Assembly: GCA_031763025.1 (NCBI GenBank)
Contig: JASSKH010000045.1
Location: 992,001-1,056,000 of the forward strand
Direction of reading: 5' to 3'
Length of the DNA: 64,000 nucleotides
From: Macrocystis pyrifera
Taxonomy: Eukaryota > Sar > Phaeophyceae > Laminariales > Laminariaceae
Shown: one piece after another, positions 1,110-58,999 of the stretch
Position numbering within the stretch: the stretch's first letter is position 1
How the letters are laid out: the number at the start of each line of letters is the position of its first letter
Notes under the pieces: generated by a model
The model's input: only the letters and a program-made list of their open reading frames with translations
What the model was told of the DNA's origin: nothing
Database searches by the model: none
Position numbers and translations under genes: made by a program

Positions 1110-1130
1110 GGGGGGGGGGGGGGGGGGGGG
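1110..1130 (+). repeat. poly-G tract
   Basis: An uninterrupted run of 21 G. Such a run could form a G-quadruplex on the plus strand. Its exact length is the kind of feature that sequencing often gets wrong. Confidence 0.9.
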
Positions 1131-1350
1131 ATGTACTCAATATCATGCATGGCCGTAGTCGTATGACCATAGACCCTCGCATCCCTACAATGCCCGGACG
1201 GAGCACGTCGGGTTTTCACCGACCAGGCTGACATTGCTTGCACCAAGTGCGAAGCGCCGTGAGGTGTTGGGCGAGTCGCATGAAGGGTGAGCTGCATCCT
1301 ACAAAGAACCGCTGTTGTGGCGGATTTTCTTGCGTATGGATGACAGCGTC
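1131..1350. repeat. dispersed repeat family D, copy 1
   Basis: About 220 bases closely match 39794-40028 in the same orientation. Shared landmarks include CATGCATGGCCGTAGTCGTA, GGACGGAGCACGTCGGGTTT, GCGAAGCGCCGTGAGGTGTT and GGATGACAGCGTCA. One minus frame is similar in both copies (DAVIH.QENPP...RLAQHLTALR.WCKQC.PGR), so it may descend from a coding sequence of a mobile element. I cannot identify that protein. Confidence 0.7.
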
Positions 1351-1790
1351 AATGGATTGATTAATTTTCGTCGTCGGTGACTCCCGAGGACATTTAACAC
1401 CAGGGCTCACAGGACGATTCCATAAAGACGATCAAACGTTGTATGTACAAAAAGCTCAACAATACGGGTGTTTGTTTTAAAAAAAAAAAACGCCCTTGTA
1501 TCATGTTTTGGTGCTCCGTTTCGGCATCCCACATGAAAACGGTGCGTATTTCTCAATAGTGAAAATATATGTCGTATACTGGCACTCAACGTTTTGGTAC
1601 CATACCATACCAGTATATACCTGGTATTTTCGTGTTGGTATAATCTCGATAGTGTACGTTCTCTAAATACATTTTGTTTTTTTGTATGATACGAAAAGTA
1701 GCAAGAAGTGTAGACCTCCCGTCACCCGTCAGTGCGGTGCGTTTAGAGATACTACTGGTTTAGTGATGCTAATGGCAGTCAGTCGTAGTA
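1351..1790. other. no gene; contains one TACCTGGTA site
   Basis: No supported coding or RNA feature. It contains an A-rich run near 1478-1490 and the over-represented 9-mer at 1618-1626. Confidence 0.5.
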
Positions 1791-5431: not shown

Positions 5432-5980
5432 GTGAAATCGGGCAACGCCTTGACGCGCCTCCTTATATAGCGGACAAGTGGCCACACCGACGGCAACCGC
5501 GATGATTGCCAGGGCTACACCCCGGACGGTTACCGCCGGCGCACACCCGACGTAAACAACGACTGCGCAGACTACAACGAGCATGGTTTCCGCCTTCGCA
5601 CGATAAATGACGGCTGGGATCACGACAATTACAAGTACGGCTGCGACGAAAGCATGGGCGTCGATTACAAGCACAAATGCGATTACAGCGCCGATACAAG
5701 GTCCCTCACAAACGACAAGTATGACCGTGGCGGTGGCGGCCACAAGAAGGACAGCAGCGACAGCAGCAGCAGTAGCGACAGCAGCGGCAGCAGCGACAGC
5801 AGCGACAGCAGTGGCAGCAGCAGCAGCAGCAGCAGCGACAGCAACAGCGATGATGGCTACAAAAAGGGGGGGAAGCACACCAGGTCCCTCACTAATAAGT
5901 ATGGCGGTGACGGTGGCGGCAAGAGCACCAGCGACAGCAACGGCAGCAGCGACAGCAGTGGCAGCAGTGACAGCCACGAC

Positions 5981-6028
<48 letters not shown>

Positions 6029-6319
6029 GACAGCAGCAGCGGTGATGGCCACAAAAGTAGCAGCAGTGACATTGGCCACAGCAGCAGCGACAGCAGCTGC
6101 GGTGATGGCCACAAAAAGGGCAGCAGCGCCAGCAACAGTGATGATGGCTACAAAACGGTGGGGAAGCACAACCAGGTCTCTCACGAACAAGTACGGAGGC
6201 GGCAAGAGCAGCAACGACAGCAGCGGCAACAGCGACAGTGGTGGCAGCAACGATAGTCACGACAGCAGCGACAGCAGCGACAGCAGCAGCGATGATGGCC
6301 ACAAAAAGGGCAGCAGCGA

Positions 6320-6351
<32 letters not shown>

Positions 6352-7133
6352 ACAGTGATGATGACTACAAAAAGGGGGGGAAGCATACCAGGTCCCTCAC
6401 TAAAAAGTATGGCGGCGGCGGCAATAGCAGCAGCGACAGCAGCGGCAGCAGCGGCAGCAGCGGCAGCAGTGACAGCAGCGGCAGCAGCAACAGCAGTGAC
6501 AGCAGCGGCAGCAGTGACAGCCACGACAGCAGCGACAGCAGCAGCGACAGCAGTCGCGATGATGGCCACAAGAAGGGCAGCAGCGACAGTAGCGACAGCA
6601 GCGACAGCAATAGCGATGATGGCCACAAAAAGGGCAGCAGCGACAGCAGCAGCAGCAGTGACAGCAGCAGTGATGATGGCTACAAAAGGGGGGGGAAGCA
6701 CACCAGGTCCCTCACTAATAAGTATGGCGGCGGCGGTGGCGGCAAGAGCAGCAGCGACAGCAGCGGCAGCAGCGACAGCAGTGGCGGCAGTGACAGCCAC
6801 GACAGCAGCGACAGCAGCGGCAACAGTGATAGTACCGGAAGCATCGACAGCAGTAGCGATGATGGCCACAAAACGAGCAGCAACAACAGCAGCGACAACA
6901 GCAGCGATGATGGCCACAAGAAGGGCAGCAGCGACAACAGCAGCGATGATGGCCACAAGAAGGGCAGCAGCGACAGCACCAGCGATGATGGCTACAAAAA
7001 GGGCAGCAGCGACAGCAACAGCGACAACAGCGACAGCCATGACAGCAGCGACAGCGACGGCGGCAAGGGCAGTGGCGATGGCCATGACAGCAAGGGTGGC
7101 AGCGACAGTGGTGACGGGCATGGAAGCAAGTAG
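5432..7133 (+). pseudogene. Ser/Asp-repeat protein gene, copy 1 (disrupted)
   Basis: This is a paralogue of the gene at 45183. Homology begins just after a splice acceptor (TATGACCAG|GTGAAATCG) and runs through a Cys-containing head: DCQGYTPDGYRRRTPDV, then DYNEHGFRLRTINDGWD. A body of (S/G)SDSS arrays follows, closely resembling dentin phosphophoryn in composition. Five TRSLTN-(D)KY motifs, four as KH(T)TRSLTNKYGG-type units, start Gly/Lys-rich spacers (about 5695, 5880, 6170, 6390, 6705). Asp-Asp-Gly-(Y/H)-Lys-Lys units separate the Ser blocks. Two lesions are visible: TAG at 5468-5470 where copy 2 has Trp TGG, and one extra A at about 6170 that moves the frame. Beyond the insertion the frame stays open and repeat-like to TAG at 7131-7133. 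The 5' exon or exons were not found. Sequencing error could explain the insertion; the nonsense codon could also be avoided by different splicing. Confidence 0.65.
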
Positions 7134-9190
7134 GGTAAGCGTCATATCAACGAACCTCGATGTGTAAGGTATACTAATGATATTTTGACCCATGAGATCG
7201 GCTCTCAGCCCTTCGAAAGTTGATTTTGCACCAGGCTTTAAGCCGAAACTAGGCTAACTTGTGTTGAAGTCCATCTCTCGGTGCACTGTTTGCTGCACGT
7301 GCCTCACCTTGCTCGCTCCTCTCGACCCTGCTAGGGGCGACCTCGGATGTGCTCGCGTCGCGTCTACATGGCGAACACAAGTTTCGAATTTTGACCAAAA
7401 ATATTGTCCCGATTTCAAGTGTTTACTCATGCATAAAAAAGGCATCAGTTGGTGGAGTGTCACGTTAAATCTGTGTTCTACAGATGGACAAGAACCGGTA
7501 CACAAATAAGAAAGTGTATTGGGCGTAAGCTTTTTTTACCCAGATCTCCAAGGAAGATCAAAAAAAAAAAAAAAAAAGTCTAAGTCAACGTGTACTTCTT
7601 TCTTGGGTGGCTCAACTAACATAATTTATTATATACAAAAACGCGGTATCCGGTTCGAAACCAGCGCAGGTATTACTTTGGGGGGGATGCTACGTATATG
7701 TATATATTTTTTTCTCTATTTTTCGTTCGGCACGATGTATTTGCGCTGCTGTTGCGTGTTGTTGACAACAACCTTTGTCCCTCGTTGTATAGTATCTTAT
7801 CATCGTATCATACAAGCACGTGTGCTGTAGGTATACGGGCGTACAAGTCCTCCAAGTAAGAGTAGTGCTGTTGCTGCTGTTGTACGAGCATGCATCAGTA
7901 TGTAACAACGGAGCATTGAAGTAGGCTCAAGAGGGGAGACGGCAAAAAAAACCTATTGTCCGATGTTCCTTGATGGTAATATTCGAAACGTTTGAGTAGG
8001 CTTTTCGCGTACTTCGTGGACAACGCTGTTTTAATACATGGTTTTCAATTGATTTACACTTTGTGCCAGGTGGCAAAGGGTGTGCCAGATAGCAAGATTT
8101 CTTTGTTGCTGGTCCATTGAATTTGGTCTCAGAGTTTTCTTTCTCTTCGTTCAAACACGAATTGTTTTCACTGTACCCCTTGGAAGTACTGTCGCATTTA
8201 CGACCCCGATTTTTGCCTACATCCTCGGTCAATACGGGCATGCGCGGAGCCAAGGCGGGCGTCAGTCCGCCGAGGCGAACCCCCCTGGTACTTCGCCTTT
8301 TTTATTAGCTGGAGCATTTGTCTCGCTGCCGCAGCTAGACTGACTCTGCCGGTGCCTACTGTAACGTAGTATTCGGTATACAGTAATCGCTCGTATAATC
8401 ACGGCGTAGACATAATGACCAGTGCAGTTGATCGTGGAACGAACAGCGTTATGGTTGCGTTCGTGGTACACATGAAACGTAGTACAGCTGTAAAGGCTGG
8501 AGCAATAATAGCACAGGTTATGAGCCCCGAATCATAATTCGATTGAGGGGTTGAAAGACTTGCGTTGTACCTAGTCGTGTCTAAACCGCCTCCAAAGAGC
8601 ATGGCAATGAGCGGAACGGTATGAGGCTGTTCATGATCGTTCGAATGTTCGTATGAAAAATAGCGTGTTTGGGCCCACGCAGCAGAAGAGTTCACCGCGT
8701 ATTCGACAATTATGGTTGGCGCATACTGTGTACGAGACAAAAGGGAAAGTTCTAACCAATGGTCGATGGGTTGTTGAATCTGATTTGGTTCGGGTTAGGG
8801 TTAGGTTAGTTTTTTTCATATCGTACGCAGTGACTCTCAACCATTGTGTCGAACACGTAGTAAAACCCCCTCCCATGTAAAAAAATCCTGGACCTCGACA
8901 GCCGCGACACAAGACAACAATCATGTTTGTCTGCAATTGATTCCACGTCCAGCTACTGTGTCAGTTCATCCACATCAACCGCCATTCTATTTGTGCCAGT
9001 TCGGTCGGGCCGTTCGGTCCTCAGGAACACGAAAAGCGGTCCAACACTCATTCTTCCTCTTCCTTGACGACTGGTTTTCTCAGGCTGCACTGAATATAAA
9101 TTCGCTTTTCATAACCAATCAGCACCAATTCATCTGGTAAATACTCCATCCGGTTTATTCCAATACTCTCTGGGGTGGGTTAGTACACGC
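7134..9190. other. no gene recognised; poly-A at 7560-7578
   Basis: Two kilobases without a supported gene. An A-tract lies at 7560-7578. A short CGGGTTAGGGTTAGGTTAG at about 8790 looks telomere-like but has only two units. The corresponding spacer in block B (49786-50780) is shorter and mostly unrelated. Confidence 0.5.
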
Positions 9191-39700: not shown

Positions 39701-39793
39701 AAATGGGATGGGGGAAAAAAACGATGCGTCACAAAAATCCGGAAAATCTGGAAATAAACTCTGCGATAGCAACGGCCCTGTGAGCCGGGGGGG

Positions 39794-40028
39794 TGGTGTA
39801 CTCATTATCATGCATGGCCGTAGTCGTATAACCATAGACCCTCGTATCCCTACAATATCGGGACGGAGCACGTCGGGTTTTCACCGACCAGGCAGACATT
39901 GCTTACACCAAGCGCGAAGCGCCGTGAGGTGTTGGGCGAGTCGGACGAAGGGTGATCTGCATCCTACTACGAATCGCTTTTTTTTAGGTGGATTTTCTTG
40001 CATGTGGATGACAGCGTCACTGAATTGA
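39794..40028. repeat. dispersed repeat family D, copy 2
   Basis: Matches 1131-1350 in the same orientation along its whole length, with scattered substitutions. See copy 1 for landmarks. Confidence 0.7.
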
Positions 40029-40489: not shown

Positions 40490-41115
40490 AATAGACAATA
40501 GTCGAATAGTCTATTAATAGCTTCCTATTGCAATTGACTGTCTATTGTGGTCCCTAATTCCAGTTAATTGATACGCGTCGAGCTCTATTACCCAGACAAT
40601 TTATATTAAGTTACCCCTACCTGGCCCTATTGTCCAGACAATTTCACTTTATAGGCAGTCTCCGTAACCAATGGTCCGGACAATTCCTATTAATGGACTT
40701 TCTCCTAAATAAATTGTCAGGCAAATTCCAATTGACAGACTATCTCCTGAATCAATTGTTCCGACAATTCCAACTGACAGTCGGCCACCCGAAATAGTTG
40801 TCCGGACTACTTCAATTAGTAGACGGACGCCAAAATTATTTGTCCCGACAACTCCAATTAATAGACAGTCTCCCAGATCAATTGGCCCGACAATTCCAAT
40901 TTATGCACAGTCTCCAAAATCAATTGTCCGCACAATTTCAATTTGCAGACTGCTTTCTAAATCAATTGTCCGGGCAACTCCAAATAATAGACGGTATACG
41001 AAATCAGTTATCCCGACAATTTCGACTAACACAAAATCTCCAAAACTACTTCAGACAATGCCATTGGGGGGCAGTCTCCTAAATCAACTGCCCGCACATT
41101 TCAAAATAACAGTGC
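40490..41115 (+). repeat. 42-bp minisatellite, forward block 1
   Basis: TCAATTGTCC-type unit starts at 40752, 40794, 40836, 40878, 40920 and 40962 give an exact 42-base period; earlier units are more decayed. Each unit holds AATTGTCCGGACAATT (a palindrome, with variation), then CCAATTAATAGACAGTCTCC. As 42 is a multiple of three, a 94-codon frame (40798-41082) reads as a 14-residue repeat (NQLS.QFQ..DSL.). A different frame is open in the third block, so a coding role is unlikely. Confidence 0.9.
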
Positions 41116-41264
41116 ATACGGATTAGTTTGTTTCGTGAAACCTTTTTTTAATGATTTACATCTATCTGAGCACATGGGCTAAGCGGTATCAAAACTTCCT
41201 ACCTGCGGACATATAATACCACGCTGTAGTTGAGGTGTCCCGCCTTTTTCTACTTATGCCTTGG

Positions 41265-41830
41265 ACAATAGACCTATTTATAGACTATTGCCCCTACAGC
41301 AGAGTCACGAAGTTGTCTATTAATTGGAATTGTCCGGGCAAGTAGTGTCATAGACTGTCTAGTAATTGAAATTGTTTAAACAATTGATCTTGGATACTGT
41401 CTATTAATTGGATTTATTCGGAGAATTGATATCGGGTACTGTCTAACAACTGGAATAGTCCGGACAAATAATTTTAGAGACTATCTATCAATTGAAGTTG
41501 CCTGATTTTTTATTTCAGAGACTGTCCACGAATTGGAATTATCTGAACAATTGATGTTTGGTGCTTGTCAATAATTGGAATTGTCCAGACAAATGAGCTC
41601 GGAGACTGATGAAATTGTGCTGGCAAATGACTTCGCAGGCTGTCAATATTATTAATTGGACTGATGAAATTGCTTGAACATTTTGATTTCGGGCGATTTA
41701 CATGAATTGGACTAGTCGGGGCAACTGCTTTGAGATACGGTCCATTAATTGGAATTGTCCGGACAATGGGTTCCGGAAGCAATCTACTAATTGGAATTGT
41801 CGTGACTATCGAGTTTAAGAGGGCTCTCAT
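41265..41830 (-). repeat. 42-bp minisatellite, inverted block
   Basis: The same unit in reverse orientation (ACTGTCTATTAATTGGAATT then GTCCGGACAATTGAT..), with more variation in unit length. It opens with GGACAATAGACCTATTTATA at about 41273, similar to the start of the first block near 40492. Confidence 0.85.
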
Positions 41831-42080
41831 TTGAAAGCTGTCTGCTACTTGTAGAATTACATTTGATTTGGTCAGTACACAACAGTACCACCATGCTAGT
41901 ATTGCCTCTACAACAGGATCGGGAACTGCCCTATGTACGCAATAATTTACAAGGTCCTTTATTGTGCCATATTACGAGTAGAATCAATTCAATGGGGAGT
42001 GTCTCATACAATAACTACTGTAGGTACACGGCCGTGACGTTTATCGAGCAACGGATTTCTTGCGTGGCATCTGAAATGAA
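41831..42080. other. spacer within the minisatellite region
   Basis: No recognisable units; no gene. Confidence 0.4.
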
Positions 42081-42655
42081 TTGTGCGGACAGTTCCAACC
42101 ACTTTCCAATCGCCGAAGTTCGTTTGGACAATTCCATTTAATTGACAGCACCCGAAATCAATTTTGTGCGGACAATTTCAGTTTCTAAGCAGCAGCCGAA
42201 ATCGAATGTTCAGACAAATCCAATTAATAGACAGCCCCCGAAATCCATTGTCAGAACAATTTCAGTTTCTGGACAACTGTTGACACCTGAAATCAATTGT
42301 CTGGACAATTCCAATTGTTGGATCACATCACAGCACCCGAAATCAATTTGCGGAATAAATCCAATTAATTACCAGTCTCCGCAACCAATTGTTTGGACAA
42401 TTCCAATTCATAGACAACACTCGAAACCTGTTGCTCACACCATTGCAACAACTATTAATAGCAGATGGTATTCGAAATCAATTTGCCTGGACAAAATTAT
42501 AATTCATAGACAATCGCCGAAAACAATTGTCTGGCCAATTCAATTATTGGAAAATCGCCGAAATCAATTGTATGGACAATTTCAGTTAATAGACAGAGTC
42601 TCCAAAAACAATTGTCAGGACAAATCCAACTAACACACATCCTCCTGAACGAATT
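42080..42655 (+). repeat. 42-bp minisatellite, forward block 2
   Basis: Forward units again (CCGAAATCAATTGT..GGACAATTCCAATT..). Indels have disturbed the period. The 163-codon frame at 42142-42633 translates the array in another frame than block 1 (PKSIVRTI..NRQ). Confidence 0.85.
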
Positions 42656-42681
42656 GTAGACACAAGACTATTGAAATATAA

Positions 42682-45090: not shown

Positions 45091-45182
45091 ATGTTCCCCT
45101 CGGCTCCCCGTGACATGCCATGTGTTGGCGATGCATTCCACCACTACTGTGTCGCACAAAATGATAATTTTCCTATCACCAG

Positions 45183-45576
45183 GTGAATTCTGGCAACGCC
45201 TTCAAGCGCCTCTTTACCTGGCGGGCGAGCAGCCCCACCGACGGAAACAACGATGACTGCCAGGGCTACACCCCGGACGGTTACCGCCGGCGCACACCCG
45301 ATGTGTACGACAGCTGCACCGGCTACGACGAGCATGGTTTCCGCCTTCGCACGATAAGTGACGGCTGGGACACCTTGACGAGCGACCATGACGAATACAA
45401 GTACGGCTGCGACGAAACCATCGACGTCGACTACAAGGACGAGTGTGATTTCAGCGGCGATGGCCACAAAATGGTCGGCAAGACCAGGTCTCTCACATAC
45501 GGCAAAGACAGCTACGACAGCAAGGAGCGAAAGCACAAGAAGGACAGCAAGGACGGCAGCAGCAGACAGCAGACAG

Positions 45577-45607
<31 letters not shown>

Positions 45608-45658
45608 GAGCAGCAGCAGCAGCAGCGACAGCGACAGCAGCAGCGACAGCAGCAGCGA

Positions 45659-45689
<31 letters not shown>

Positions 45690-45780
45690 GACAGTAGCGA
45701 CAGTAGCGACAGCAGCCACAGCAGCAGCAGCGACAGCAGCAGCAGCGACAGCAGCAGCAGCGACAGCAGCAGCAGCAGCA

Positions 45781-45812
<32 letters not shown>

Positions 45813-48800
45813 GCAGCAGCGACAGCAAGGACCGCAAGGACCGCAAGGACCGCAAGCACAAGAAGGACAGCAGTGACAGCAGCATCAGCGACAGCAAAGA
45901 CCACAAGCACAAGAAGGACAGCAGCGACAGCAAGGACCACAAGCACAAGAAGGACAGCAGCAGCAGCGACAGCAAGGACCACAAGCACAAGAAGGACAGC
46001 AGCAGTGACAGCATGGACCGCAAGCACAAGAAGGACAGCAGCAGCAGTGACAGCAGCAGCAGCGACAGCAGCAGCAGCGACAGCAAGGATCGCAAGCACA
46101 AGAAGGACAGCAGCAGCAGCGACAGCAAGGACCACAAGCACAAGAAGGACAGCAGCAGCGACAGCAGCAGCAGCAGCAGCGACAGCAAGGACCGCAAGCA
46201 CAAGAAGGACAGCAGCAGCAGCGACAGCAAGGATCGCAAGCACAAGAAGGACAGCAGCAGCAGTGACAGCAGCGACAGCAAGGACATGGATCGCAAGCAC
46301 AAGGACAGCAGCAGCAGCGACAGCAAGGACCACAAGCATAAGAAGGACAGCAGCAGCGACAGCAGCAGCAGCAGCGACAGCAAGGACCACAAGCACAAGA
46401 AGGACAGCAGCAGCAGCGACAGCAAGGATCGCAAGCACAAGAAGGACAGCAGCAGCAGCGACAGCAAGGACCACAAGCACAAGAAGGACAGCAGCAGCGA
46501 CAGCAGTGACAGCAGCAGCAGCGACAGCAAGGACCGCAAGCACAAGAAGGACAGCAGCAGCAGTGACAGTAGCGGCAGCGACAGCAAGGATCGCAAGGAC
46601 CGCAAGCACAAGAAGAAAGACAGCAGCAGCAGTGACAGCAGTGACAGCAAGGACATGGACCGCAAGCACAAGAAGGACAGCAGCAGCAGCGACAGCAAGG
46701 ACCACAAGCACAAGAAGGACAGCAGCAGCGACAGCAGCAGCAGCAGCAGCGACAGCATGGACCGCAAGCACAAGAAGGACAGCAGCAGCAGCGACAGCAA
46801 GGACCACAAGCACAAGAAGGACAGCAGCAGCAGCGACAGCAAGGACCACAAGCACAAGAAGGACAGCAGCAGCGACAGCAGTGACAGCAGCAGCAGCGAC
46901 AGCAAGGACCACAAGCACAAGAAGGACAGCAGCAGCGACAGCAGCAGCAGCAGCGACAGCAAGGACCACAAGCACAAGAAGGACAGCAGCAGCAGCGACA
47001 GCAAGGATCGCAAGCACAAGAAGGACAGCAGCAGCAGCGACAGCAAGGACCACAAGCACAAGAAGGACAGCAGCAGCGACAGCAGTGACAGCAGCAGCAG
47101 CGACAGCAAGGACCGCAAGCACAAGAAGGACAGCAGCAGCAGTGACAGTAGCGGCAGCGACAGTAAGGATCGCAAGGACCGCAAGCACAAGAAGGACAGC
47201 AGCAGCAGTGACAGCAGTGACAGCAAGGACATGGACCGCAAGCACAAGAAGGACAGCAGCAGCAGCGACAGCAAGGACCACAAGCACAAGAAGGACAGCA
47301 GCAGCGACAGCAAGGACCGCAAGCACAAGAAGGACAGCAGCAGCAGCGACAGCAAGGACCACAAGCACAAGAAGGACAGCAGCAGCAGCGACAGCAAGGA
47401 CCACAAGCACAAGAAGGACAGCAGCAGCGACAGCAGTGACAGCAGCAGCAGTGACAGTAGCAGCAGTGACAGCAACGACCGCAAGCACAAGAAAGACAGC
47501 AGCAGCAGCGACAGCAAGGACCACAAGCACAAGAAGGACAGCAGCAGCAGCGACAGCAAGGACCACAAGCACAAGAAGGACAGCAGCAGCGACAGCAGTG
47601 ACAGCAGCAGCAGCGACAGCAAGGATCGCAAGGACCGCAAGCATAAGAAGGACACAGCAGCAGCAGCGACAGCAGCGACAGCAAGGACATGGACCGCAAG
47701 CACAAGAAGGACAGCAGCAGCAGCGACAGCAACGACCGCAAGCACAAGAAGGACAGCAGCAGCAGTGACAGCAGCGACAGCAAGGACATGGACCGCAAGC
47801 ACAAGAAGGACAGCAGCAGCAGCGACAGCAAGGACCACAAGCACAAGAAGGACAGCAGCAGCAGTGACAGCAGCGACAGCAAGGACATGGACCGCAAGCA
47901 CAAGAAGGACAGCAGCAGCAGCGACAGCAAGGACCACAAGCACAAGAAGGACAGCAGCAGCAGTGACAGCAGCGACAGCAAGGACATGGACCGCAAGCAC
48001 AAGAAGGACAGCAGCAGCAGCGACAGCAAGGACCACAAGCACAAGAAGGACAGCAGCAGTGACAGCAGTGACAGCAGCAGCAGCGACAGCAAGGACCGCA
48101 AGCACAAGAAGGACAGCAGCAGCAGTGACAGCAGTGACAGCAAGGACATGGACCGCAAGCACAAGAAGGACAGCAGCAGCAGCGACAGCAAGGACCACAA
48201 GCACAAGAAGGACAGCAGCAGCGACAGCAGTGACAGCAGCAGCAGCGACAGCAAGGACCGCAAGCACAAGAAGGACAGCAGCAGCAGCGACAGCAAGGAC
48301 CACAAGCACAAGAAGGACAGCAGCAGCAGCGACAGCAAGGACCACAAGCACAAGAAGGACAGCAGCAGCGACAGCAGTGACAGCAGCAGCAGCGACAGCA
48401 AGGATCGCAAGGACCGCAAGCATAAGAAGGACAGCAGCAGCGACAGCAGTGACAGCAGCAGCAGCGACAGCAACGACCGCAAGCACAAGAAGGACAGCAG
48501 CAGCAGCGACAGCAACGACCGCAAGCACAAGAAGGACAGCAGCAGCAGCGACAGCAAGGACCACAGGCACAAGAAGGACAGCAGCAGCGACAGCAGTGAC
48601 AGCAGCAGCAGCGACAGCAAAGACCGCAAGCACAAGAAGGACAGCAGCAGCAGTGACAGTAGCAGCAGCGACAGCAAGGATCGCAAGGACCGCAAGCACA
48701 AGAAGGACAGCAGCAGCAGTGACAGCAGCGACAGCAAGGACATGGACCGCAAGCACAAGAAGGACAGCAGCAGCAGCGACAGCAAGGACCACAAGCACAA

Positions 48801-49785
48801 GAAGGACAGCAGCAGCGACAGCAGTGACAGCAGCAGCAGCGACAGCAAGGACCGCAAGCACAAGAAGGACAGCAGCAGCAGCGACAGCAAAGACCGCAAG
48901 CACAAGAAGAAAGACAGCAGCAGCAGTGACAGCAATAGCCGCGACAGCATGGACCGCAAGGACAAGCACAAGAAGGACAGCAGTAGCCGCGACAGCATGG
49001 ACCGCAAGGACAAGCACAAGAAGGACAGCAGCAGCAGCGACAGCATGGACCGCAAGCACAAGAAGGACAGCAGCAGCAGTGACAGCAGTAGCAGCGACAG
49101 CATGGACCGCAAGCACAGGAAGGACAGCAGCGACAGCAAGGACATGGACCGCAAGCATAAGGACAGCAGCAGCAGCGACAGCAAGGACCACAAGCACAAG
49201 AAGGACAGCAGCAGCAGCGACAGCAAGGACCGCAAGCACAAGAAAGACGGCAGCAGCAGCGACAGCAGTGACAGCAGCAGCAGTGACAGCAAGGACCGCA
49301 AGCACAAGAAGGACAGCAGTAGCAGCGACAGCATGGACCGCAAGCACAAGAAGGACAGCAGCAGCGACAGCAGTGACAGCAGCAGCAGCGACAGCAAGGA
49401 CCGCAAGCACAAGAAGGACAGCAGCAGTGACAGCAGCAGCGACAGCAAGGATCGCAAGCACAAAAAGGACAGCAGCAGCGACAGCATGGACCGCAAGCAT
49501 AAGAAGGACAGCAGCAGTGACAGCAGCAGCAGCAGCGACAGCAAGGACCGCAAGCACAAGAAGGACAGCAGCAGCGACAGCAAGGACCGCAAGCACAAGA
49601 AGGACAGCAGCAGCAGCGACAGCAGCAATGACGGCGAGGACCGCAAGCACAAGAAGGACAGCAGCAGTGACGGCAATGACAGCAAAGACCGCATGCGCAA
49701 AAAGGACAGCAGCAGCAGCGACAGCAGCGACGATCGCAAGGACGAGGACAGGACGGGCAAGGACGACCGCCGCTATAACTATTAA
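45183..49785 (+). CDS. Ser/Asp-Lys/His repeat protein, copy 2 (frame changes)
   Basis: The exon begins after an acceptor (TTTTCCTATCACCAG|GTGAATTC; stops precede it in frame). The head holds two related units, DCQGYTPDGYRRRTPDVYD and SCTGYDEHGFRLRTISDGWD, that is C-x-G-Y-x3-G-[YF]-R-x-R-T, then a Cys/Asp/Tyr segment (KYGCDETIDVDYKDECDF) and one KTRSLTYGKDSY. The remaining roughly 1,400 codons are Ser/Asp blocks (DSSSSDS) alternating several dozen times with basic blocks (KD-[RH]-KHKK). Ser is almost always AGC. The frame shifts twice, at 45780/45781 and 47654/47655, each time by loss of one G from AGC. Three frames joined give about 1,530 residues ending DDRKDEDRTGKDDRRYNY. The upstream exons, probably with the signal peptide, were not found. 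Alternating phosphorylatable acidic and Lys-rich blocks resemble mineral- or polyanion-binding matrix proteins in style; function is inference. Confidence 0.65.
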
Positions 49786-50075
49786 GGTCAGCGTTTTTGC
49801 CAAAAGTGTAGATATGTGAGGTATACCATGGTATGCACTTAATACGAGCTGTTCTTGCGCCCTGGGTTTTGAGAGGTGAGACGCAAGATTTGGCACGGTT
49901 GTTTTTTGGGGCAATGTGAAAATCTGAGAAGTTGTATTTTTGTCTTTTTTCCGTTCTTAAGGCTCAACGTTAGGTTTTCCTGGATATTTCGGCAAATTTG
50001 ACCTTAACTGACGCACTGGAAAAAAAAAGGAAACGAAAAAGGCCAGTCATCACTTTCTTTTTTCATATTCTGAAT
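49786..50075. other. 3' flank of the repeat-protein gene
   Basis: GTGAGGTATACCATGG (49815) parallels GTGTAAGGTATACTAATG (7161) behind copy 1, so the duplication extends slightly past the stop codon. No further gene. Confidence 0.4.
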
Positions 50076-57502: not shown

Positions 57503-57977
57503 AAAAAATACGGGGAAACCCTCTAATATTATCGTAGGTACCTCGTACACTCGCAGTTTTTGTACTCGAGATACTGCGAGTACTGTGAGATGGGTGTATC
57601 CCAGGTTCGCCCTGGGTCTGCAGCAAGATTCTCTTTCGGTAAGGTGTAGCGTGGAGGACACGCCAGGTATAGGTGAGGCTCGGCACGGTCAGCCGAGCAG
57701 AAGTGATCATGAAGCATGACGCAAGTCATCTCACATGACAGTCATCAGTAATTACTCCCCGCCTCAACTATCATCAGATCTACGGAGATCTGCGGCCACT
57801 TTTAGTACAAGAGTCAATATCCACGATAACGGATGAACCACTGACTGTAGAGTAACGACCTGAGACTCACATCGCCCCCCAATGTTTGAACGCCTCTTGC
57901 TGGAGAACCCAGCAAAGGTTTCGAACATTCTAGAACGAACGGTTTCTAGGTTCTCTACTAATCACAAATTTGTACAG

Positions 57978-58999
57978 TGGTAGTTGATGTATATTATTCA
58001 ACTGGTTCATTTTCAAACCACGTCACTCCCTGCGTAGTGAAAACCGCGGGCTTGTGTGACTATGATAGAATTTTACTACAGAATCAGTCGGGCGCAGGAT
58101 CCGCAATGGGAACGCCAGGCTCCATATACGAAGCGATCATCCTTCGACCTGATGATCAACTCCACCCCAACAGCGGGTGGCCAGGTGACGTCGTGGAACG
58201 GCATGCTCGTATCATGGACACTCGGACGGCTCTCGGATTCAACTGGCACTACACTACTACCGATTGCCATATCGAAGACCATGGCCATATCGAGATAACC
58301 GCATCCCAATGTGCACGATGGCGAGATCCCGCACCAGTCTTGATTCCGCACGGACCGCCCCAGTCACTCCATGATGCAGTCAATGCCTTGTTCCTAACCG
58401 GAGCCGCCTCCGACTTCCCATTTCCTGGACCTACCTGCTCCGTGCCCCCCTGCGACGAGAGCTGCGCCCGGCACATCAGAACATCCACATGGTCGATTTT
58501 TCCTTGGAGTGCGGACAACGCCCCAGATCGCGTTTTCTTCGCGTCTGCACGTGTAGACATCTACGAGGACGCCGGAGAGCCGCCAGCACCGTCACCCATT
58601 TTGATGATAGGCGTTGAGTACTGCCTCGTAGCTGTCATCTACTCCCTTCCGAACCATTTCGTGACCCAGTTGCGTTCGAGAGGGCGGTGGTTGAAGTACG
58701 ATTGCATACTCGGGGGGAGTACCACGTCTTGCGACGATTCCGACTATGACTGGTATCATGGTTTCCAGCATATGTATGTCTACCTTCGAAAGTCCATGAC
58801 CTTGCCTGTTCCCCAGGCACAAACGACACCATACCGTAGTGCTAGCTACCATGAGCGCGCAAGCCAAGAACGCGCGGAGATAATCGAGGCGACTAGACAA
58901 GGACCCATCATGCCTCCGCCTTACCGAAGTCCTGGCCACTACGACGTGGGGAGCGCAGCTGTGCCTTGCCGACTCGACTCCGACGTACCGCCGCCTTGA
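57978..58999 (+). CDS. USP-like (peptidase C19-type) C-terminal half
   Basis: An open frame of 340 codons with an acceptor-like TTTGTACAG|TG at its start. Residues about 130-273 follow the layout of the second half of ubiquitin-specific proteases: SLHDAVNALF; a Cys cluster C154-x4-C159-x3-C163; PDRVFFASARVDIYE; then YCLVAVIYSLPNHFVTQLRS, GRWLKYD and MYVYLRKS, which parallel 'Y.L.AVI.H....GHY.A..R', 'W..YDD' and 'AY.L.Y.R'. The catalytic His would be H227, although the usual Gly before it is Asn here. No catalytic Cys box (GNTC[YW]-like) is visible in this exon or just upstream, so the enzyme is incomplete or inactive, or has unseen exons. Domains of this type are found both in cellular genes and in some DNA transposons. 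Family placement rests on pattern recognition only. Confidence 0.45.

Follow-up and report, generated by a model that had tools for sequence, protein, structure and literature searches.

Introduction

Nopp140 (NOLC1) and Treacle possess an N-terminal LisH motif, the vertebrate SIBLING proteins carry the RGD integrin motif, and the silaffins of diatoms are secreted with a signal peptide and bear modified Lys clusters that take part in silica precipitation. Two kinds of phosphorylation sites matter for serine-rich proteins of this sort: SxE, which is the usual motif of the secretory Ser kinase, and SxxD/E, which is the CK2-type site. Silicon deposition is known in the sori of another kelp. In Treacle, 11 linkers lie beside S/E-rich low-complexity blocks and the alternating charge blocks stabilise condensates (PMC11996177), and the glue of the sandcastle worm is described as a coacervate with Ser-phosphorylated and polyampholyte Pc3 proteins (PMC11277488).

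Here we describe a trio of charged-repeat genes of Macrocystis pyrifera, which is a real feature of a kelp contig, unfamiliar and partly broken. The window, by which we mean the whole analysed stretch of 64,000 nucleotides, corresponds to positions 992001-1056000 of contig C135. The genome searched (G000) comprises 537,376,219 bases in 223 contigs; the published genome of this kelp has 537 Mb in 223 contigs (PMC10498591).

Three gene copies in tandem

The genes are named copies A, B and C along C135, where A lies outside the window and B and C lie inside it. The head of copy C, used as a genome query, gave three + strand matches on C135 (955569, 997435 and 1037183), and the head of copy A (E up to 10) returned the identical three places and no fourth. 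The copies are thus in tandem, about 40 kb apart, with 41,866 bases between the starts of A and B and 39,751 bases between those of B and C. The sequence-only reading had proposed two paralogues: the paralogue at 5432-7133 of the window does exist, but the genome search raises the number of copies to three, and the only unbroken one is copy A, so that the window itself contains no uninterrupted copy. The idea that C135 is a contaminant was judged unlikely. A repeat of about 240 bp is common to this contig and many others at about 90% identity, therefore C135 most likely comes from the same genome as they do.

Copy A occupies an exon on the + strand at L005 66-4100 (contig 955566-959600), whose uninterrupted open frame spans 1352 aa between stops, or 1344 aa counted from the acceptor. 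Its tail consists of DSS/KGSS runs split by SDDGHKKVGKHTRSLTNGKYGG-type spacers, and 109 DSS triplets are found in the exon product. The KHTRSLTN-type spacers number 14 (13 with TRSLT and one with TRFLT), and 13 SLTN motifs follow each other in 12 interior steps of 74-93 residues. When the whole genome was searched with a degenerate spacer pattern, 14 matches fell in copy A, three in copy B and none elsewhere, and the reversed control gave 0.

The head of copy B (5432-5695, + strand) keeps all four Cys and has an in-frame TAG at 5468-5470, where A reads TTG and C reads TGG; its single in-frame ATG comes late, at ESMGVD. The tail (5696-7133, + strand) opens with a TRSLT spacer and continues with DSS/GSS runs and KHTRSLTN-type spacers to a TAG stop at 7131-7133, with a frame break near 6165 on the way. 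The frame of this paralogue is therefore interrupted twice, and copy B has the appearance of a pseudogene.

Copy C extends over 45183-49785 on the + strand. The intron end before it (45097-45182) can be aligned to A and B in pairwise and three-way alignments and finishes with a CAG acceptor at 45180-45182, directly before the head at 45183-45455, as had been predicted and as the letters confirm. The head contains four Cys (residues 26, 45, 76 and 88 from V1) and two C-x-G-Y-x3-G-[YF]-R-x-R-T units. These tandem units had been taken as the common head, which is right for copy C, but in copy B the second unit reads C-A-D-Y-x3-G-F-R-x-R-T, with the G of the motif replaced. TRSLT had been assigned to the head as well; it belongs to the tail spacer, and copy C has a single remnant of it at the joint between head and tail (45456-45518, + strand), where comparison by eye with the units of copy A revealed GDGHKMVGKTRSLTYGKDSYD, a spacer of KHTRSLTNGKYGG type.

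The tail of copy C (45519-49785, + strand) is an array of Ser/Asp and K-D-[RH]-K-H-K-K blocks that ends with RRYNY and TAA at 49783-49785. Its two long pieces contain KDRKHKK 24 times, KDHKHKK 26 times and 72 KK pairs, which bears out an alternation repeated several dozen times, and Tandem Repeats Finder detected the array with a period of 204 bp (score 2252) and with one of 42 bp (score 1024). The two repeat styles noticed from the letters, DSS/GSS with spacers and DSSSSDS with KD[RH]KHKK, are thus real. A continuous frame in copy C is not: in this assembly the frame shifts near 45780 (approximately 45776-45792, + strand) and near 47650 (approximately 47646-47662, + strand). Other frames of this tail are open as well, so the listed 866-aa frame from 45168 is wrong after the first break and does not represent the protein. 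Either the breaks of copy C are recent or they are indels of the assembly.

The search for a first exon

The heads of copies A and C have no in-frame ATG, therefore the head exon requires an upstream exon. Neither the three-way comparison of the upstream regions nor the inspection of hydrophobic ATG starts gave anything convincing that is common to the copies as exon 1, and no signal peptide was found upstream of the three head exons. The three-way comparison left three shared stretches: a repeat block, L004 163-250 with very weak similarity, and L004 4348-4535, where the similarity is weak and gapped. The conserved block (window 1122-1360 and 39787-40028; L004 9003-9227) was rejected as exon 1, since it proved to be a kelp repeat, about 240 bp long and present in high copy, which stands upstream of all three gene copies. 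A first look for this repeat gave 4639 candidates; scoring 40 of them recovered the query place and further copies at about 90-92%. Upstream of C and A there are also 42-bp tandem arrays (window 40629-42677 and L004 6010-7795), which are 82.6% identical over about 1.8 kb.

On the other side of the genes, the stretch after the stop of copy B (7135-7173, + strand, GTAAGC...) is similar to L005 4105-4143 of A and 49783-49834 of C, with low local scores (15 for A-B and 15 for B-C), and the best A-C match lies elsewhere. GTAAGC in A (L005 4105) and B (window 7135) and GTCAGC in C (window 49787) stand 4, 1 and 1 bases past the stop and resemble the splice donor of a 3' UTR intron.

Relatives of the head

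No convincing match to the head was obtained in Pfam, PHROGs, NCBIfam, PDB, IMG/VR or a protein collection searched in three length ranges, and within these collections the earlier impression of an unfamiliar head is supported. Among brown algae, the head searches covered the window's own genome alone, and no kelp-only claim is made. By title, none of the publications among the matches listed deals with this family.

The best Pfam candidate was Ermin (PF20491), which matched the head of copy A at E 0.0045 with 16.9 bits, against a Pfam cut-off of 26.9 bits, and the head of copy C at E 0.12 with 12.2 bits; head B was not among the Ermin matches. One would argue from the overlapping stretches of heads A and C that the kelp genes belong to a described family, which scores too weakly or is poorly covered by collections possibly short of brown-algal proteins, and the single brown-algal genome searched is in keeping with this. 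However, the two Ermin scores are not independent, because the heads are relatives, both scores stay below the cut-off, the matched stretch is acidic, and Pfam gave nothing at E 1 for the complete exon product of copy A; we therefore took the Ermin match for an effect of composition. Nor did any PDB match fall under E 0.18, the value of the best-scoring one, chromatin assembly factor 1 subunit A (three-head profile), which was not believed. Membership in a described family thus seems very improbable to us. Other weak matches that were not believed are SusG_CBM58 for head B (E 0.062), a disintegrin in PDB (E 0.64), phrog_6169 and phrog_19762 in PHROGs, and NF045974 in NCBIfam. An AlphaFold2 model of the heads of B and C was uninformative (mean pLDDT 36.8).

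As for the rest of the window, a Pfam scan of its 129 ORF translations found a DDE_1 transposase match in one of them (E 6.1e-11) and, once each and weakly, DUF3880 (E 0.00037) and Na_H_Exchanger (E 0.0071). For an open frame of 345 aa at 57962-58996, Pfam returned nothing at E 10. The long AGT/AGGAGG arrays at 1970-2834, read on the minus strand, yield frames of poly-Leu or poly-Pro.

Composition and charge of the tails

The tail of copy A has 38% Ser, 19% Asp and 18% Gly and a net charge of -82; the tail of copy C, with its two pieces joined for counting, has 39% Ser, 23% Asp, 22% Lys and 8% His, a net charge of +54 without His and a charged fraction of 0.51. A measure of charge segregation compared with 200 shuffles gave z +1.0 for A and z -3.5 for C as coded, and z +12.9 and z +17.8 when Ser was counted as acidic. 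Sign changes, as coded versus with Ser at -2, were 155 versus 81 in 9-residue windows and 155 versus 155 in 5-residue windows for tail C, and 38 versus 46 and 156 versus 56 for tail A. Segregation therefore rises with acidic Ser and the sign changes generally do not, which means that the blocks become stronger but mostly not more numerous. The calculation agrees with the proposal of a polyampholyte made of acidic-Ser and basic blocks.

The kelp tails share with Treacle and Nopp140 a long repeat domain that alternates acidic-Ser and Lys-rich blocks, with a charge alternation that is predicted to depend on phosphorylation. The genes may therefore encode an intracellular condensate protein of the nucleolus or nucleus, in which CK2-phosphorylated acidic-Ser blocks and Lys-rich blocks would drive phase separation. 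The linkers and alternating charge blocks of Treacle are a parallel to the kelp tails as far as they are described (PMC11996177), and so are the 14 TR[SF]LT spacers of copy A and the interior steps between its SLTN motifs. The putative phosphorylation sites speak in the same direction for copy C: SxxD/E sites number 104 in tail C, and SxE sites are nearly absent (a single one in tail A and 0 in tail C), so that a nuclear or cytoplasmic kinase fits C at least equally well. Against this stand the 15 SxxD/E sites of tail A, the Gly-rich stretches of copy A and the four conserved head Cys, which would be unusual in a nucleolar protein. Moreover, the kelp protein has a Cys/Gly/Tyr head without a named domain above cut-off, the copy A product is without a Pfam match, and SRP40_C (PF05022), the C-terminal mark of Nopp140, has its sole genome match at C212:3070768-3070914 and not on C135. 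This absence at the locus argues against membership in the Nopp140 family, but leaves room for a protein that works in the manner of Nopp140 or Treacle. LisH was not among the Pfam matches of the three heads, the query being the head exon without the first exon. On balance, we consider the nucleolar-type condensate protein to be the main rival of the reading favoured below, possible but somewhat unlikely.

Constraint on the head and turnover of the tails

Over aligned parts, the head of copy C is 75% identical to that of B and 68% identical to that of A, and all three heads have their four Cys in register. The dN/dS of the heads is 0.41 for A-B (90 codons), 0.38 for A-C (96 codons) and 0.49 for B-C (90 codons); in a slightly different alignment of B and C, dN is 0.14 and dS 0.36. 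Bootstrap resamples (up to 500 for each pair) with dN/dS of at least 1 made up a share of 0.000 for A-B, 0.004 for A-C and 0.032 for B-C, and the 95% interval is 0.20-0.71 for A-C and reaches 1.05 for B-C. The head is thus under constraint across the three copies. In tail C, T among C+T amounts to 67/998 at third positions and 1/164 at first positions (Fisher p 0.0005), which has only supporting weight, because the repeat units were recently amplified and the counts are not independent.

The tails have turned over. The GDGHKMVGKTRSLTYGKDSYD remnant indicates that the tail of C was most likely once of the A type, and most likely that tail was replaced by growth of the DSSSSDSKD[RH]KHKK unit. 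A and C nevertheless both alternate acidic-Ser blocks with basic ones, despite their different repeat units: the repeat sequence turns over between copies and the block design is kept.

It could also be that the genes form a decaying lineage-specific family, in which B and C would be pseudogenes and the tails would be coding minisatellites born from slippage and unequal exchange, with little function beyond copy A. The TAG and frame break of B, the two frame breaks of C, the tandem array structure and the upper end of the B-C interval are what such a decay would leave. However, the A-C interval stays well below this value and copy A is intact over its 1352 aa. Furthermore, the assembly was made from PacBio reads with Canu and then Racon, which is the sole polishing step named in the pertinent passages (PMC10498591), and therefore indels within a repeat array can be errors. 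We regard general decay of the family as unlikely.

Discussion

Our best guess, to which we give less than even confidence, is that the genes encode a secreted matrix polyampholyte whose behaviour would depend on phosphorylation. As we picture it, each of the three tandem copies would comprise, after a first exon, one large exon for a four-Cys head of about 90 residues and a very long low-complexity tail. The protein would be secreted, the head would be closed through two disulfides, and many of the tail Ser would be phosphorylated, by which the tail would become a series of alternating strongly acidic and basic blocks. Such chains could then stick to one another and to Ca2+ (alternatively to silica or further polyanions of the wall), and would condense within the wall or the mucilage as a matrix that resembles a coacervate. 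The sequence-only reading had likewise expected a mineral-binding, silica-binding or adhesive matrix protein, a role that stays putative, and nuclear proteins such as Treacle follow a comparable tail plan. The assumption of secretion is suggested by the four conserved Cys, the Gly-rich stretches and analogy; the searches upstream of the heads gave neither a first exon nor a signal peptide in its favour. It is also counted against a matrix protein that two of the three copies are disrupted as assembled.

The analogy draws on three kinds of described proteins. With phosphophoryn (DSPP), a vertebrate SIBLING protein, the kelp protein shares the DSS repeats; it differs in the basic Gly/Tyr spacers of its tails, in a head without a Pfam match above cut-off and in the number of RGD motifs, which is 0 in the read pieces of A, B and C (first exons not included). 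Silaffins are similar as Ser- and Lys-rich proteins, and the KK pairs of copy C might by analogy allow silica binding, but a signal peptide and processing sites were not seen in the kelp copies, whose exon 1 was not found. The Pc3A and Pc3B proteins of the sandcastle worm resemble the kelp protein in a Ser-rich, phosphorylatable polyampholyte tail (38-39% Ser in A and C, with predicted phosphoserine blocks) and in the coacervation that we propose, with no claim of sequence kinship; the difference is that in the kelp protein the basic blocks share one chain with the acidic blocks. Given the silicon in kelp sori and the coacervates of the sandcastle worm, a matrix role is plausible, nothing more.

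If the secreted matrix polyampholyte is taken further, the genes might represent a new family of brown-algal structural proteins, which would unite the two coacervate partners, phosphorylatable Ser/Asp blocks and Lys/His blocks, in a single chain and be switched by phosphorylation to a self-binding block polymer, a proposal that we ourselves consider doubtful. Such a polymer would set in the kelp wall, in mucilage or in silicified sorus caps. The relevant passages of a 2021 review of the macroalgal matrix name arabinogalactan proteins as brown-algal wall proteins (PMC8307928), and the wall proteins of brown algae seem to be little described. Provided that it is expressed and secreted, copy A would become a candidate for a part in kelp adhesion, wall hardening or silicon deposition.
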